From: Verrucomicrobiota bacterium
GTDB taxonomy: Bacteria > Verrucomicrobiota > Verrucomicrobiia > Limisphaerales > VHDF01
Assembly: GCA_016871495.1 (NCBI GenBank)
Contig: VHDF01000001.1
Coordinates: forward strand, 1 to 64,000
Direction: 5' to 3'
Length of the DNA: 64,000 bases
The notes beneath the pieces were generated by a model, which had not been told where the DNA came from, searched no databases, and worked only from the letters and a program-made list of their open reading frames with translations. This document shows, in pieces, positions 43,006 to 48,819 of the stretch; within the stretch, counting starts at the first letter, position 1, and every line of letters begins with the position of its first letter. The translations under genes and the position numbers were made by a program.

Positions 43006-44046
43006 TCAACCGCGGCTCACGAAATCATCCGTGCTGGTCGCGTCCTGCAATGCGAGTTTCCGGTCGCGCCTCTCCCAATACCAGGCGATCCACACGCTGA
43101 TCTCGTAAAGAATCTGCAAAGGAATGGCCATCATCACTTGCGTCAAGACTTCAGGCGTTGTCAGCACGGCACCCAACACCAGATTGATCGCAATCATGTA
43201 CCGGCGAAAACCAGCGAGTTGCTCGTGGCAAAGGATGCCCAGCTTCACCAGCGTGAGAATCACCACCGGCAGCTCAAATCCCAGCCCCATGCCCAGCAAA
43301 AACTTGCAGACAAAACTGATATACTCCTCCGCGCGCCACTGATTCGCCGAAAACCCCAACCATTCGGAATACTTGACCGAAGCCCCCAGCGCCAGAGGCA
43401 TCATCACAAAATAACAAAACGAAACGCCTCCCGCGAAGAGAAGCGTGCCAATCGCAAATCCAGGCAAAATGTGCTTCTTCTCACTCCGCCTCAGCGCGGG
43501 CAAAATGAACATGCCGACGTAATACAAGACAAAGGGAGCCGCCAGGACAAACCCGCCGTAAATCGCCACCTGGAAAGCCACATAAAACCCGCCGGCCGGA
43601 TTGAGGTTGAGCAATTCAACCCGCTCCGCGAGGGTTTTCTTCGGAGGGACGTTGTTGGTCTGAAGCTGAAACGCCAGGAAGGTGTTCGTCGAACCGGGCA
43701 AAGGCAACGCCACCAAATTCAGCGTGATGTCCGGTGCCTGGCCGAGATCAAGCGTCCCCAAACGATTCGTTCCCAATCGCAGGCTGCCGACGATATTGGT
43801 TCCGATCGAAACATGGACCTGCTGATTCGTCCCCGCAGGTGTGATCGTAGCCCTCCCCAGCGGCCACTTCAGAACATTAACAAGCCAATTGCCCGCAATC
43901 AGACAGACGAGCATCGAGATGCCGAGGACCGTGGCACACCGGATGAAGACCCATCGCAGGTCCTCCAAATGCTCAAAAAAAGACTTTACCGGTCCGCCCT
44001 CTTCCTCTTCGACATCTAAGGGCGGTCCCTCCGGTTCAGTCGCCAT
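43006..44046 (-). CDS. tatC: Sec-independent protein translocase TatC, with an enlarged first periplasmic loop
   Basis: TatC is the core of the twin-arginine receptor. The N-terminal acidic stretch is followed by FFEHLEDLRWVFIRCA, the conserved TatC signal-peptide-binding segment (E/L/R). TM helices include VLGISMLVCLIAGNWLVNVL, VAFQVAIYGGFVLAAPFVLYYVGMF, ILPGFAIGTLLFAGGVSFCYF and FELPVVILTLVKLGIL, and the conserved FE..FELP region is seen. The protein is 346 residues, against roughly 250 for E. coli. The excess lies between TM1 and TM2: about residues 60-150 form a beta-strand-rich, Gly/Thr/Asn-rich insertion. tatA is directly upstream (24 bases). Confidence 0.93.
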   Translation of the reverse strand: MATEPEGPPLDVEEEEGGPVKSFFEHLEDLRWVFIRCATVLGISMLVCLIAGNWLVNVLKWPLGRATITPAGTNQQVHVSIGTNIVGSLRLGTNRLGTLDLGQAPDITLNLVALPLPGSTNTFLAFQLQTNNVPPKKTLAERVELLNLNPAGGFYVAFQVAIYGGFVLAAPFVLYYVGMFILPALRRSEKKHILPGFAIGTLLFAGGVSFCYFVMMPLALGASVKYSEWLGFSANQWRAEEYISFVCKFLLGMGLGFELPVVILTLVKLGILCHEQLAGFRRYMIAINLVLGAVLTTPEVLTQVMMAIPLQILYEISVWIAWYWERRDRKLALQDATSTDDFVSRG

Positions 44047-44069
44047 GCTTGATACCCCTCAGCCGCCCC

Positions 44070-44408
44070 CTAGGCCTTGCGAACGTCTTGGGCAGGCGTG
44101 GTCGCACCCGTGCCGGCGACCGGCGTGCCGGACGCCGCAGAAGGAGCACCCTTGGCCGAAGCAGCAGAAGCCGAGGACTGAGAAGTCTGAGATTGTTGAT
44201 ACTGCTGATGATGGAGGTCATCATCAATGGCTCGATGGATCTCATCCTGCGCATCCCGCGTGGCGCGCTTGAACTCTTTGATCGATTGGCCCAGCCCGCG
44301 GGCTAACTCCGGCATCTTGCGACCGCCAAAAAGGATGAGCACCACAACCAGGATGAGGACAACCTGCCATCCCCCCACACTCAGAAACGCCAGTGAAATT
44401 GCATTCAT
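44070..44408 (-). CDS. tatA: Sec-independent protein translocase TatA/E
   Basis: The 112-residue protein has one N-terminal helix (GGWQVVLILVVVLILFG) followed by GGRKMPELARGLGQSIKEFKRATRD, the classic TatA amphipathic helix. The remainder is a Gln/Ser/Ala-rich, disordered tail. TatA forms the translocation path for folded proteins and works with TatC. The Tat-signal lactonase at 4.4 kb is a likely client. Confidence 0.93.
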   Translation of the reverse strand: MNAISLAFLSVGGWQVVLILVVVLILFGGRKMPELARGLGQSIKEFKRATRDAQDEIHRAIDDDLHHQQYQQSQTSQSSASAASAKGAPSAASGTPVAGTGATTPAQDVRKA

Positions 44409-44474: not shown

Positions 44475-45098
44475 CTATTGCGGCTTGGGCCGAAGCAGAA
44501 TGAACTCGCCGCGGCGATTCTTCGCCCAGGCTTCCTCGTTTTCTCCTTGCACGGCCGGCTTGTCCTCACCGTAGCTCAAGGTGCGAATCCGCTCCGGTCC
44601 CACCCCTAAATGCGCCAGCATCTCCCGCAAAGATTGCGCCCGCCTCTCTCCGAGAGACCGGTTATATTCCTCCGTCCCACGCGAATCGCAATGCCCCTCA
44701 ATGAGCAATTTGTTCGCCATGTCCCCTTTCAATTGCGCCGCAACCGCTTCAACCTTCGAGCGCTCCGAAGCCTTGACATTAAACCGGTCAAAATCGAAGT
44801 AAACGGTGTAATTCGCCAGGGCTGCCGGATCCTTCAACATCCCCTCAAATTCTTCCAAACCCGTAGCGGAAAACGTCCCATCCGGATTGGCCCCGATTCG
44901 GGTCGTTCGCGACGCGTCGTCCCCGCCCGGAACCACAGGACCACGTCCCACCGGCGGAAAACCTTCATCACCCGTCCTGGGCACTTGCGCCCTTTGCCCG
45001 GGAATTGGGGTTGGGCCTTTCAACGTGCGTTTGCACCCCGTCATTCCCAGTGCGAAGATGCACAACGCCACCGGGAGAATCAAACCAATGCGTTTCAT
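44475..45098 (-). CDS. pal: Peptidoglycan-associated lipoprotein Pal (OmpA-like)
   Basis: Lipoprotein signal with lipobox LGMTGC, so the mature protein is lipid-anchored. A proline-rich linker leads to an OmpA-like peptidoglycan-binding domain: YFDFDRFNVKASERSKVEAVA, LLIEGHCDSRGTEEYNRSLGERRAQSL and LSYGEDKPAV. Pal links the outer membrane to peptidoglycan and works with TolB. At 207 residues it is slightly longer than E. coli Pal because of the Gly/Pro-rich linker. The gene lies directly downstream of tolB. Confidence 0.93.
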   Translation of the reverse strand: MKRIGLILPVALCIFALGMTGCKRTLKGPTPIPGQRAQVPRTGDEGFPPVGRGPVVPGGDDASRTTRIGANPDGTFSATGLEEFEGMLKDPAALANYTVYFDFDRFNVKASERSKVEAVAAQLKGDMANKLLIEGHCDSRGTEEYNRSLGERRAQSLREMLAHLGVGPERIRTLSYGEDKPAVQGENEEAWAKNRRGEFILLRPKPQ

Positions 45099-45130: not shown

Positions 45131-46294
45131 TTACCTGCCCCAACTCGGCTGCGAAGAGCTTCCCGAGATGCGCGCGATATCTTTGACGCGTTTGGTGGGA
45201 ACGTCAAGCAAAGAGAGGACTCTCTTGCCACCTCCCACCCGCCGCGTAAAAACAACCGTCCGTGAATTGGGCGCCCAAGAGGGATCTTCACCCGCCACCA
45301 ACACTTTGGCCTCACCTCCCTGAGCCGGAACGATACAAAGGTCGAAACCACCCGTCTGGGATGTGAAAATAATCCACTTGCCGTCCGGCGACCAGTCCGG
45401 CTCAGTCAAGTTTCCACCCACCCCAACCGTCGACACCCGCCGCATTTCCCCGCCTTCCGCCGAGATCTTGTAAAGTGCCGCGCGCCCACCCACCTGGGAC
45501 GAAAAACACAAGGTCCGTCCATCCGGCGACCAACACGGAGACGATTCGGACTCCTTGGTCCGGGTCACACGGCGAAGATTCTTCCCATCCATGTCACACA
45601 CATAAACGTCAGGACTCCCGTCCTTGCTGCAAATAAGCGCCACTTTCGAACCGTCCGGCGAGATGGCCGGGCTCGTGTTCAACCCCGAATACCGGGCCAA
45701 GATCCGGCGCTCGCCCGAGGCCGGATAATAAACATAAACGTCCGGATTGTCCTTCATGTAGGACGTAAAACAAAGCACCTTGCGACCCGCACCCCAGTTT
45801 GGCGCCGCCACAATGGATTGATCAGACGTGACTGCTCGCGCCCCGTGTCCGTCGTAATCCGCCACAAAAATCTCGCTCGTCTTGCCAAAATCACCTTTGA
45901 AAGCGATGCGCGTCCTCGCAATGCCTTTCACGCCCGTCAATTTCTCGATGATGTCATCCGCGAAAGTATGCGCCAGGGTGCGCGGCGACGCGCCGCGATA
46001 TTCCTGTCCGAGCACCTGAGCCTTGCTGACCCGATCGGTCACGCGACCCACAAGGCTGGCACCGTTCGATCCCGACACCCAGTATTGAGCCTTGTCGGCG
46101 GCCACGACGCTGAACCCGCAAATCTCCAAGTCGAACTTCAACACGGATTCCACCTCGCCCGTGAATCCACTGAGCGAGATCGGAATGGTCTTCACCCCGC
46201 CGGCCAATCGTTCAATGTCGATCTCCTCGGCGGCCCTCACCCCCAGGACCAGGGACACCCACGCCAGCACCTGCAACATCAATCGCTTTTTCAT
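45131..46294 (-). CDS. tolB: TolB-like beta-propeller protein of the Tol-Pal system
   Basis: A signal peptide (QVLAWVSLVLGVRA) precedes an N-terminal TolB domain (TIPISLSGFTG..., GVTDR-like ALVGRVTDRVSKAQVLGQEY), followed by a six-bladed WD40-like PD40 propeller. Typical repeats are NTSPAISPDGSKVALICSKDG, SSPCWSPDGRTLCFSSQVGG, TEPDWSPDGKWIIFTSQTGG and DPSWAPNSRTVVFTRRVGG. TolB is periplasmic and binds Pal. It overlaps the TonB/TolA-like gene by four bases and is followed by pal after 32 bases. Confidence 0.93.
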   Translation of the reverse strand: MKKRLMLQVLAWVSLVLGVRAAEEIDIERLAGGVKTIPISLSGFTGEVESVLKFDLEICGFSVVAADKAQYWVSGSNGASLVGRVTDRVSKAQVLGQEYRGASPRTLAHTFADDIIEKLTGVKGIARTRIAFKGDFGKTSEIFVADYDGHGARAVTSDQSIVAAPNWGAGRKVLCFTSYMKDNPDVYVYYPASGERRILARYSGLNTSPAISPDGSKVALICSKDGSPDVYVCDMDGKNLRRVTRTKESESSPCWSPDGRTLCFSSQVGGRAALYKISAEGGEMRRVSTVGVGGNLTEPDWSPDGKWIIFTSQTGGFDLCIVPAQGGEAKVLVAGEDPSWAPNSRTVVFTRRVGGGKRVLSLLDVPTKRVKDIARISGSSSQPSWGR

Positions 46295-47301
46295 CCGTTC
46301 ATTCGTTTTTCCCGCAAGTTGAATCGTATCCGAAACGTCCGTTTCTCATCCTTCGCCCCCTCCGGAAAGGGCGCCACGAAACGCACTCGATCAAGCGCCT
46401 TCTGCACCGACCGATCCAGGGCGTCGTTACCCGAACGGCGCGTGATGAAGGTTCGATCCATCGCCACGCTTCCGTCACGCCGAATCTCAATGCTGGCCAC
46501 GACGGTCAACGACTCGTCCACCCCGTCGCCAGGATCCTGCCAGGCATTGTCGTACACCGTCCGAACGACGGAATTATAATTGGCGTAAGCCTCACCTCCG
46601 GCGCCCGGGATCTCCACCGAAGTGCCCTTGCTCAATTTGCCCGAAAGCGCGGACACCGCCCCGCGAATGCTGGCCGCGCGCTCTGTCGCCACTTTCTCCG
46701 CCGCGGCTTGCCGCGCGGCTTGAGCCGCCGCCGCCTTGGCCTCTTCCTCTCGACGCTTCTTCTCCCGATCCGCCTTCGCATCCGCGGGAAATCGCTTCGC
46801 CAAATCCAAATTGACTTTAATCTCCTTCTTCTCCTTCAACGCGGTTTTGGCGCTCTCGGGATCCTTGGAAGTCGTGTCCTTTTTGTTCTTCTTGGGCAAT
46901 ATCGAGTCCGGATCGTCCTTCACTTCCGGAATCTTCTTGGGCTCCGGCGCGGGTTCGGAAACTTTCTTCCGCTCGAGCGGCTTTTCCACAGGAGGTATTT
47001 CTTTCCGGGGCTCCGGCTCGACCGGTGGGGGGGGATCGGAAGCAGCGCGGACCGGCGTCTCGACGGGCGCTTGCGGAGGCAAAGGCGGCACATCCGGACG
47101 CACGTTGGGTGGTGGCGCGTTGGGGGTCCCACCGCCGGAGAAGAGTTCGTCGGTGGTCTTGAACGGGATGATCTCGAGGAGTGGATACTTCTCTTCCGGC
47201 GGCTGTTGATCGAGGAACGCGGAGCCCACGATGGCGGATCCGATGAGCACCACGTGAAGCAACGCGGAGGTCACCAAGCATTTCTTTTGCAGCCGGTTCA
47301 T
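46291..47301 (-). CDS. TolA/TonB-like energy-transducing protein
   Basis: An N-terminal inner-membrane anchor (CLVTSALLHVVLIGSAIVGSAF) is followed by a proline-rich stretch (PPPNVRPDVPPLPPQAP), a long charged helix with KK and EE repeats (ADREKKRREEEAKAAAAQAA) and a C-terminal TonB-like domain (VVASIEIRRDGSVAMDRTFITRRSGND, ALDRSVQKALDRVRFVAPFP). The middle helix corresponds to the coiled domain II of TolA. It would couple proton-driven TolQ/R to TolB/Pal. The symbol is left blank because TolA and TonB cannot be separated with certainty; the position between tolR and tolB favours TolA. Confidence 0.9.
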   Translation of the reverse strand: MNRLQKKCLVTSALLHVVLIGSAIVGSAFLDQQPPEEKYPLLEIIPFKTTDELFSGGGTPNAPPPNVRPDVPPLPPQAPVETPVRAASDPPPPVEPEPRKEIPPVEKPLERKKVSEPAPEPKKIPEVKDDPDSILPKKNKKDTTSKDPESAKTALKEKKEIKVNLDLAKRFPADAKADREKKRREEEAKAAAAQAARQAAAEKVATERAASIRGAVSALSGKLSKGTSVEIPGAGGEAYANYNSVVRTVYDNAWQDPGDGVDESLTVVASIEIRRDGSVAMDRTFITRRSGNDALDRSVQKALDRVRFVAPFPEGAKDEKRTFRIRFNLREKRMNG

Positions 47302-47714
47302 CGACGCTCGTTGGGATTGCCCGCCAGACTGATCGGAATTTCTCGTTTCGAAAGCATTTCGAACAAGACGAACATTTTTTCGTAGTGCGTGGACTTGTCG
47401 CCTCGGACGAAAACCGCCAGGCGCGGATTCAATTGCCTCTCTTTGGCCAGAGCGGCTTCGAGTTGCTCGAAAGTCAGCCGGGTGCCCCCCATGACATATT
47501 CCCCGGCGCGAGAGACCTCGACGGTCTTGAAATCCTCCTTGCGGCGGGGTTTGTCCGAATGGCCGCCCTTGGGCAGCTTCAACTCAAGGCTTCCATCGAG
47601 CAGCGGAGTGGTGATGACGAAAATAATGAGCAGCACGAACGCCAGATCGAGCAAGGGGGTGATGTTGAGATCGCTCAAAGTCACCAGCGAGTTGCGTTGG
47701 GAAAAGCGGCGCAT
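47298..47714 (-). CDS. tolR: TolR/ExbD-family biopolymer transport protein
   Basis: The 138-residue protein has one membrane helix with the TolR/ExbD motor motif SDLNITPLLDLAFVLLIIFVIT (the conserved Asp inside the helix) and a periplasmic domain (GEYVMGGTRLTFEQLEAALAKE, AVFVRGDKSTHYEKMFVLFEML). It forms the proton-driven motor with TolQ. It overlaps the TolA-like gene by four bases. Upstream, 35 bases away, is the zinc-ribbon gene rather than tolQ directly. Confidence 0.93.
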   Translation of the reverse strand: MRRFSQRNSLVTLSDLNITPLLDLAFVLLIIFVITTPLLDGSLELKLPKGGHSDKPRRKEDFKTVEVSRAGEYVMGGTRLTFEQLEAALAKERQLNPRLAVFVRGDKSTHYEKMFVLFEMLSKREIPISLAGNPNERR

Positions 47715-47749: not shown

Positions 47750-48097
47750 CTACTCGACCGGCGCAGGCTGAAACTCCGCGAGCATGACAATGATCTTGTA
47801 AGCGAGGAGAATGCTGGCCACGAGCAAAACCAAATGGATCAATTTCACCTTGCCCTTGGATTTTCTCGAGAGCCGGTTCTCAATTTTTCTCCATAAGCCG
47901 CGATGCAGCCGCTGTCCGCAATCGTGGCAGTGGCTGCGCACCCGGGCATTGTGGGCTCCACACGCATTGCACGACACATAAAGGTGCGAGCCGCAGCGGC
48001 GGCAGGTGTGCTTGCCCGCGTCATTGACATGCTCGCATTTCGGGCAGGCCACGCCCTGCGCCGAAGTCGGATTCTCGCGGCGCTTGGATTCCTTCAT
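47750..48097 (-). CDS. Double-zinc-ribbon membrane protein inserted between tolQ and tolR
   Basis: From the ATG at 48097 the 115-residue protein contains four CxxC pairs in two zinc ribbons: CPKCEHVNDAGKHTCRRC (residues 18-35) and CNACGAHNARVRSHCHDC (residues 43-60). A basic segment (LWRKIENRLSRKSKGKVK) and one C-terminal helix (IHLVLLVASILLAYKIIVML) follow. The ribbons should lie in the cytoplasm, with the C-terminus anchored in the membrane. It overlaps tolQ by four bases, so it is made together with the motor proteins. I know no standard Tol-Pal component like this; a role in regulation or assembly is speculative. Confidence 0.8.
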   Translation of the reverse strand: MKESKRRENPTSAQGVACPKCEHVNDAGKHTCRRCGSHLYVSCNACGAHNARVRSHCHDCGQRLHRGLWRKIENRLSRKSKGKVKLIHLVLLVASILLAYKIIVMLAEFQPAPVE

Positions 48098-48819
48098 GCT
48101 CCCTCCTCGTCCTTCAAAAACTCGCTCTCCATCCGTGAAACGAGGGCCTGGGCAAAATTGTCCAACTCGACGGTGAGCACCCGCAGATAATGCACCAGCC
48201 AGTTGTAACCAAACATTGAGGGAATGGCGACCAGCAGACCCGCCACGGTCGTGATCAAGGCCGCCGCCACCCCCGGCGCCATGGCCTGCAACGTAGCCGA
48301 GTTCTGCAACGCCACCTGCCCAAAGGTGCTCATCACCCCCCACACCGTCCCCAGCAATCCGAGAAACGGAGCCCCGCTCACCGCAATCGCGAGCAAAATC
48401 AAACCCGACTCGAGCCGCAGCGACTCCCGCGCGACGGCCGCCTCCAAACTTCGCTTCACGTGCTCCATGGCCTTCAAGGAGGCCTGCTCCTTGCGCGCGC
48501 CCCCGCCTGACTTCAACCGGGCATCCAGTTGCATGCATCCATCCTGATAGACGGAAAACAACGGGCATCCCTCCACACGCACCCGGCGATCATAAATCCC
48601 AAACACGGTGGTCTGGGACTGAAATTCGGAATCAAAAAAGGCGTTGAGCTTCCGGGCACGCCTCATCTGCATGGCTTTGTAAGCCATGACCGACCACGCG
48701 AAAATCGAGAAGAACACCAGGATGACAATGATGACCTTGGCCTCGGGCCGCGCCTGGTTCCACACATAAACCAGCTCAGCCTGAGTGCTGTCAGCCAGCA
48801 AAAAACCGGAAAAATTCAT
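48094..48819 (-). CDS. tolQ: TolQ/ExbB/MotA-family proton channel protein
   Basis: The 241-residue protein shows a first helix (AKVIIVILVFFSIFAWSVMAYKAMQMRR), a cytoplasmic loop, and the conserved pair of helices LILLAIAVSGAPFLGLLGTVWGVMSTF and LQAMAPGVAAALITTVAGLLVAIPSMFGYN, where the GTVWGVM and TTxxGLxxAIP segments are MotA/TolQ hallmarks. It is the first gene of the Tol-Pal run and likely defines the operon's 5' end. Confidence 0.93.
   Translation of the reverse strand: MNFSGFLLADSTQAELVYVWNQARPEAKVIIVILVFFSIFAWSVMAYKAMQMRRARKLNAFFDSEFQSQTTVFGIYDRRVRVEGCPLFSVYQDGCMQLDARLKSGGGARKEQASLKAMEHVKRSLEAAVARESLRLESGLILLAIAVSGAPFLGLLGTVWGVMSTFGQVALQNSATLQAMAPGVAAALITTVAGLLVAIPSMFGYNWLVHYLRVLTVELDNFAQALVSRMESEFLKDEEGA

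Follow-up and report, generated by a model that had tools for sequence, protein, structure and literature searches.

The window is a stretch of 64,000 nucleotides from a Verrucomicrobiota bacterium. A complete tolQRAB-pal cluster lies in it on a single strand, and between tolQ and tolR the cluster holds a gene for a protein of 115 amino acids, here called DZR-TM. The features of the region are:

48094..48819, minus strand: tolQ (MotA_ExbB 5.3e-30; TIGR02796 1.5e-46, below the equivalog cut-off)
48094..48097, minus strand: ATGA overlap of the tolQ stop and the DZR-TM start (sequence)
47750..48097, minus strand: tolQ-tolR intergenic DZR-TM gene, 115 aa (open reading frame; Pfam DZR 2.9e-7; homologues in the same slot)
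47993..48046, minus strand: putative zinc ribbon 1, C18-x2-C21-x10-C32-x2-C35 (invariant in 33/33 aligned copies; AlphaFold2 block pLDDT 93-96, residues 21-40)
47918..47971, minus strand: putative zinc ribbon 2, C43-x2-C46-x10-C57-x2-C60 (invariant in 33/33 aligned copies; AlphaFold2 block pLDDT 94, residues 41-60)
47777..47833, minus strand: predicted transmembrane segment, residues 89-107, within model helix 68-108 (hydropathy, charge, AlphaFold2 model)
47298..47714, minus strand: tolR (ExbD 1.1e-19; TIGR02801 1.1e-20, below the equivalog cut-off)
46291..47301, minus strand: tolA (TonB_2 2.6e-14; TIGR02794 3.7e-17)
45131..46294, minus strand: tolB (TIGR02800 2.1e-74, below the equivalog cut-off; PD40 repeats)
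44475..45098, minus strand: pal (OmpA 4.2e-19; TIGR02802 1.4e-34, just below the cut-off)
44070..44408, minus strand: tatA, downstream neighbour (TatA_B_E 6.7e-19)
43006..44046, minus strand: tatC, downstream neighbour (TatC 6.4e-54)

The DZR-TM gene begins with an ATG at 48097, and its stop ends at 47750 on the minus strand. The ATG and the tolQ stop share 4 nt, and a gap of 35 nt precedes tolR. Named by Pfam and NCBIfam profiles, the cluster reads tolQ - DZR-TM - tolR - tolA - tolB - pal - tatA - tatC, with tolB and pal recognised by the TolB propeller and Pal/OmpA profiles. The initial annotation had made the gene part of the Tol operon on the strength of its overlap with tolQ and its location before tolR; the coordinates and profiles support this, and the tolQRAB-pal set is complete.

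The operon order and all core components, as identified by profile, are those of Tol-Pal. The differences are the extra gene between tolQ and tolR and the presence of tatA-tatC after pal. The tol operon of Escherichia has extra genes of its own, ybgC and cpoB, which are not of the zinc-ribbon type, and to our knowledge no known Tol component matches the DZR-TM protein. The same view was taken in the initial annotation. No account of a tol operon with a zinc-ribbon gene, and no paper combining tolQ, tolR and ‘zinc ribbon’, was found in the literature searched, most subscription journals lying outside its reach. The word ‘zinc’ occurs nowhere in the accessible part of PMC12204202. In the window, tatA and tatC (43006-44408) are located downstream of pal on the same strand. 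Since TatC is again encoded after Pal at several related loci, a common operon for the Tol and Tat genes is possible within the host's order.

In the window protein a double zinc ribbon is followed by a basic stretch and then by a single helix predicted to span the membrane. Pfam DZR (PF12773) is matched at E = 2.9e-7, with 31.0 bits against a curated gathering cut-off of 27.3. DZR occurs widely in proteins that are otherwise unrelated, and names a fold, not a function. The two Cys4 sets presumably bind zinc. From the last ribbon to the helix there are 10 K/R residues versus 1 D/E. The hydrophobic segment at residues 89-107 has a mean Kyte-Doolittle value of 2.64, and 8 residues lie beyond the helix. 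An AlphaFold2 model built on a 33-row alignment has a mean pLDDT of 84.5 and a pTM of 0.48. The block means are 93-96 across residues 21-60, which hold the ribbons, and residues 68-108 form one helix.

Several identities for the protein were rejected. It is not a second TolR/ExbD, having no ExbD match at E<=1 and no Asp in its hydrophobic segment. The best NCBIfam match, PRK14559, reaches 28.5 bits against a required 374, and the protein is not a member. Residues 42-105, which cover ribbon and helix, weakly match NCBIfam teico_TcaA (0.0058); at 15.5 bits against an equivalog cut-off of 550, membership is rejected. The DZR-TM protein further differs from TcaA in its context and in having no large part past the membrane. 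A PADLOC match of 0.0067 was taken as noise.

Among solved structures, the profile best matches double zinc ribbon and ankyrin repeat protein 1 (1e-7). Single ribbons superpose, with weak scores, on ribosomal eL40 and on RanBP2/NZF-type fingers, several of which have structures in complex with Ran, ubiquitin or RNA. There was no Foldseek match at E<=0.001 and no VIA-align match at Z>=5. As the structure matches are weak and mostly to single small fingers, no functional claim is rested on them.

The distribution of the gene was followed through the host's order. A first search covered 58 genomes, including the window's own, which is the sole member of its family there. Matches at E<=0.01 were present in 24 of the 58, and the loci returned included 12 relatives between tolQ and tolR. 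The window copy and 11 of these 12 same-slot relatives formed the search profile (alignment A1). This profile matched in 44 of 146 order genomes at E<=1e-6, the best 31 candidates per genome being scored. A tolQ match at E<=1e-40 was found in 133 of the 146. Among the matches listed, the tolQ survey kept 133 loci of 131 genomes; it omitted second matches of ~41-44% identity, including the sole matches of G054 and G108. At 35 of the 133 tolQ loci (among the matches listed), a DZR-TM match is situated immediately downstream of tolQ on the same strand. These 35 linked genomes span 15 families, as counted from the profile matches, and at the start of a contig there is one further tolQ-linked copy (L054). 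With starts chosen by script, 24 of the 35 linked copies begin before the tolQ stop.

The remaining 98 loci have no linked match, and 97 were examined (G078 left out). Of these, 94 have tolR, one lies at a contig end and two are extra copies in G067. Thus 94 of the 128 order Tol loci in which tolR was found carry neither DZR-TM nor a CxxC-rich open reading frame in the tolQ-tolR gap, among the matches listed. The spacing between tolQ and tolR is 253-1798 nt (median 370.5, n=34) with the gene and -4 to 534 nt (median 20.5, n=94) without it. Five gene-free loci have gaps above 140 nt (153-534 nt), two of which house another small gene. In L108 (G023) and L112 (G010), the slot is filled by a 23S rRNA-intervening-sequence protein (PF05635; E 1.3e-30 and 6.5e-35) and there is no zinc-ribbon gene. 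The two extra tolQ-like genes of G067 (L155, L161) have no tolR match downstream. The initial annotation had counted absence from close relatives against its own reading. On this point the outcome is divided: the gene is present across the 15 families, but missing from the majority of loci, including those of the four genomes nearest the window on the TolQ/TolR tree, which belong to family f15.

A ribbon-motif scan of a genome contig collection, which sees motif-keeping copies only, gave 40 stretches. Of these, 28 adjoin tolQ and/or tolR, and both genes were found for 25 of the 28. Judged by length, at least six of the contigs (L208, L209, L210, L211, L217, L235) had already been counted in the order survey, and the two tallies therefore overlap. 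The record titles of the 28 name Verrucomicrobia, Verrucomicrobiota or Verrucomicrobiales in 24 cases, Akkermansia muciniphila in three and Omnitrophota in one. Going by these titles and by how large the related groups are, the order is probably the one named Limisphaerales or Pedosphaerales in GTDB. The Omnitrophota record, L229 (JAMCZD010000255.1), contains a tol operon with a zinc-ribbon gene resembling that of the host's order. It is probably mis-binned or misnamed, because its tolQ is as close as the order's own (E 2.4e-102). The three Akkermansia muciniphila records (L201, L214, L231) also carry the zinc-ribbon type of tol operon, and their titles are probably wrong.

Outside the order, a search of the phylum drew 240 genomes, with the best 19 candidates taken from each; the genomes listed were all outside the host's order, and 218 of the 240 were not among them. 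At E<=1e-10 it returned the window's own genome and one other, the latter with a match in an open frame of 1101 aa. An outgroup check started from 86 genomes with a tolQ match (the window's own included) and took in 29 tolQ loci from outside the order. None of these 29 has DZR-TM, and tolR follows within -7 to 126 nt. As far as searched, and at the sensitivity used, DZR-TM appears to be restricted to one Verrucomicrobiota order. Given its absence from the 94 order loci, including the nearest on the tree, and from 29/29 outgroup loci, the gene looks like a derived addition that Tol does without.

This pattern weighs on one candidate role, that of an assembly factor for TolQR, in which the helix and basic stretch would aid TolQ insertion or TolQ-TolR pairing during translation from one mRNA. 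The location exactly between both partners, the overlapping start codons and the single helix with only 8 residues past it in the window protein would all suit such a factor. The gene-free loci of the order and the outgroups do not, and the zinc ribbons and their expansion are left unexplained. The assembly role is regarded as quite unlikely.

A tree of TolQ and TolR was built with FastTree from 142 rows, the two extra G067 copies being left out. Gene presence requires at least 14 changes on this tree, 7 of them forced by starred branches, versus 31.4 in shuffles; 47 of the 139 inner branches are open, there is a long-branch warning, and gain and loss cannot be told apart from the tree. The gene is found in 5/5 rows in each of families f2, f7 and f27, in 1/5 rows of f21 and 1/4 of f52, and in 0/4 of f15, which stands beside the window's row. 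Gain inside the order with repeated loss is the likeliest history, and the gain is placed there because the outgroups (29/29) are without the gene. Several gains inside the order are the alternative. A horizontal cassette is not favoured, as the loci with the gene group together on the tree and several families have it throughout.

All eight cysteines are invariant in 33/33 aligned linked copies, three array proteins being left out of this alignment and two copies coming from one genome. Extraction of the open reading frames demanded four CxxC pairs, by which none of the 35 linked genomes was lost, and the profile might miss copies with broken ribbons. A DZR match at E<=0.01 is likewise present in 33/33. 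Outside the two Cys4 sets, L39 alone is invariant and N25 almost so, and the non-cysteine residues of GVLCxKCEHLNP are conserved in many copies. The cysteine conservation that the initial annotation had made a condition of its reading was observed.

The dN/dS of DZR-TM is 0.077-0.321 in 7/7 close pairs, three of which have one genome in common, versus 0.011-0.143 for TolQ. The dN exceeds that of TolQ in 7/7 pairs and the dN/dS in 5/7. The DZR-TM protein is under purifying selection and is evolving faster than TolQ. A chance or shadow open reading frame is ruled out by the linked homologues, the eight invariant cysteines and the dN/dS.

A clear helix is present in 31 of the 35 scored linked copies. 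In these the flank on the ribbon side contains 246 K/R versus 31 D/E, and the other side 54 versus 31; this basic bias points to the ribbons lying inside the cell. A topology of cytoplasmic zinc ribbons and one membrane helix is thus well predicted from sequence. Two cytoplasmic ribbons and a single helix had been proposed from the window alone, and the DZR score above cut-off, the charge bias and the one hydrophobic segment bear this out. At the hydropathy threshold applied, a clear helix is missing in the four other scored copies (G051, G060, G100 and G125), G125 having none whatever.

The number of ribbons is variable. Proteins with 6 ribbons (12 CxxC pairs, 247-291 aa) and with 16 ribbons (32 CxxC pairs, 592 and 595 aa) occupy the tolQ-tolR slot, each with one C-terminal hydrophobic segment. 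In the order survey such arrays occur in 3 of the 35 linked genomes (G063, G094, G117), and the other 32 have single double-ribbon proteins only. Of the 28 motif-scan stretches beside tolQ and/or tolR, 14 have 2 ribbons, nine have 6, two have 16 and three are cut by the stretch end. Two tandem DZR-TM copies are present in G076. The two 8-unit (16-ribbon) arrays come from different MAGs and show a positional best match in 7/8 units, making an assembly artefact less likely. The model of a 6-ribbon (3-unit) protein has a pLDDT of 64.3 and a pTM of 0.24; only its ribbons (block means 71-85) and helix are usable, and the inter-ribbon segments fall below pLDDT 50. The arrays are predicted, at low overall confidence, to resemble beads on flexible linkers.

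These properties bear on two further roles. The initial annotation had suggested that the protein might sense redox or metal conditions. As a redox or zinc sensor, zinc loss or cysteine oxidation would alter ribbon folding and slow or release TolQR. The eight invariant cysteines, predicted to face the cytoplasm, are consistent with this, and Tol rotation, being costly, could be subject to gating. Cys4 ribbons of this type, however, usually play a structural part, and the spacing and fold here are those of ordinary Cys4 ribbons. A range of 2 to 16 ribbons is odd for a sensor, and past the Cys4 sets invariance is confined to L39, with N25 close to it. The variable ribbon number would suit multivalent binding or avidity better than sensing, and the sensor is considered improbable. 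A membrane-tethered cytoplasmic store or buffer of zinc would account for up to 16 ribbons per chain. It is very unlikely, as single double-ribbon proteins are all that 32/35 linked genomes have, no zinc-uptake gene was found among the eight operon genes by profile annotation, and conserved non-cysteine residues such as those of GVLCxKCEHLNP are needless for storage.

The order survey also gave 29 profile matches, among those listed, that are not just downstream of a kept tolQ match. Several lie within larger frames. One, in G134, is tolQ-linked after all, and another is found ~3 kb upstream of the tolQ of G036. Three loci, L045 (G051:C42), L048 (G117:C127) and L049 (G133:C397), encode unlinked single double-ribbon membrane proteins whose C-terminal part resembles that of the window protein. 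The linked copy of G051 looks decayed, with a weak helix and no ATG found by script, and its unlinked copy looks more intact. A function outside Tol is, on this account, conceivable. A comparison of 12 unlinked loci, with flanks of ~1.5 kb or less in most, brought out no common neighbour. Shared flanks were seen in two loci of one genus only. L019 and L207 have a repeat-protein similarity in common, at different distances, and the remaining loci share the gene alone, plus scattered short pieces.

Residues of TolQ and TolR were compared with the presence of the gene. Before control for the tree, 635 tests gave a best Fisher value of 5.6e-7, at TolQ 234. In tree-controlled pairs, at the 7 of the top 20 sites for which the outcome was examined, no TolQ/TolR residue tracks the gene (median p 1), with only 7 independent pairs and little power.

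The main rival to a role in Tol stays an autonomous one, because of the unlinked copies, the gene-free relatives and the lack of a tracking TolQ/TolR residue. The protein would be a zinc-ribbon membrane protein that binds RNA, ribosomes or other proteins in a cell-wide role, using the slot for expression only and making no contact with the motor. Copies of the same type that lie apart from tolQ in several genomes and have no common neighbour, and the frequent absence of the gene where Tol is kept, are what it would lead one to expect. Nucleic-acid binding would be compatible with the basic linker and with the resemblance to eL40 and RanBP-type fingers. Against it, tolQ-tolR is the sole recurrent context found across families and the slot is filled in 15 of them, with copies of 1, 3 and 8 double ribbons. 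The autonomous role is judged unlikely, though well ahead of the remaining alternatives. Points for a Tol role include the linkage at 35/133 loci (among the matches listed), the wider tolQ-tolR spacing where the gene is present, the clustering on the tree, the overlap with the tolQ stop, the low dN/dS, the charge bias and the arrays in the slot. Besides the unlinked copies and the gene-free loci, the four copies with no clear helix and the faster evolution relative to TolQ weigh against it.

A possible parallel is the gliding motor of Myxococcus. A 2024 study by Attia et al. is said to have found that the cytoplasmic zinc ribbon of GltJ binds MglA. Like DZR-TM, GltJ/AgmX of the gliding machine, whose motor is AglRQS, is a membrane protein with, reportedly, a zinc ribbon in the cytoplasm; it works with a MotAB-like motor. 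According to PMC12288465, MglA activates gliding via effectors, among them GltJ and also AglR, which belongs to the MotAB-like motor. The C-terminus of GltJ is described in PMC8262864 as a TonB-like domain. This end belongs to the GltJ chain, whereas the ribbons and TolA are here the products of separate genes, and the ribbon here is of the DZR type. Identity with GltJ is rejected, since there is no TonB-type match and the helix of the model stops at residue 108 in a chain of 115.

The reading tentatively preferred, at a little short of an even chance, is that DZR-TM is an accessory, lineage-specific subunit of TolQR(A) that acts as a cytoplasmic multivalent docking module. It would be a single-pass inner-membrane protein with its N-terminal zinc ribbons in the cytoplasm, and its synthesis would be coupled to that of TolQ and TolR. 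The helix would sit beside the TolQ-TolR complex, and the ribbons would capture a cytoplasmic partner, such as a division, cell-shape or polarity factor. Docking of the partner would set the place or the time at which the proton-driven motor engages TolA-TolB-Pal, and proteins with 6 or 16 ribbons would give the dock greater reach and avidity. Regulation of the motor, which the initial annotation had also raised, is plausible. A more specific version, by analogy with MglA-GltJ, is doubtful: a scaffold anchored in the membrane, with 2, 6 or 16 ribbons, that would wire TolQR to a cytoplasmic network and form a sixth subunit in these lineages. Tol itself works without DZR-TM, as the gene-free loci of the order indicate.

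In the usual picture of Tol-Pal, the proton gradient is the input, division proteins set the place, and the motor steadies the outer membrane. Added to it here is a Tol accessory gene that is, as far as searched, specific to one order and absent from the literature searched, together with ribbon arrays that were invisible from the window. If the link to the motor is true, it would offer a direct handle on how the Tol motor might be addressed from the cytoplasm, with a parallel in the gliding motor. The related families with and without the gene provide a natural experiment.
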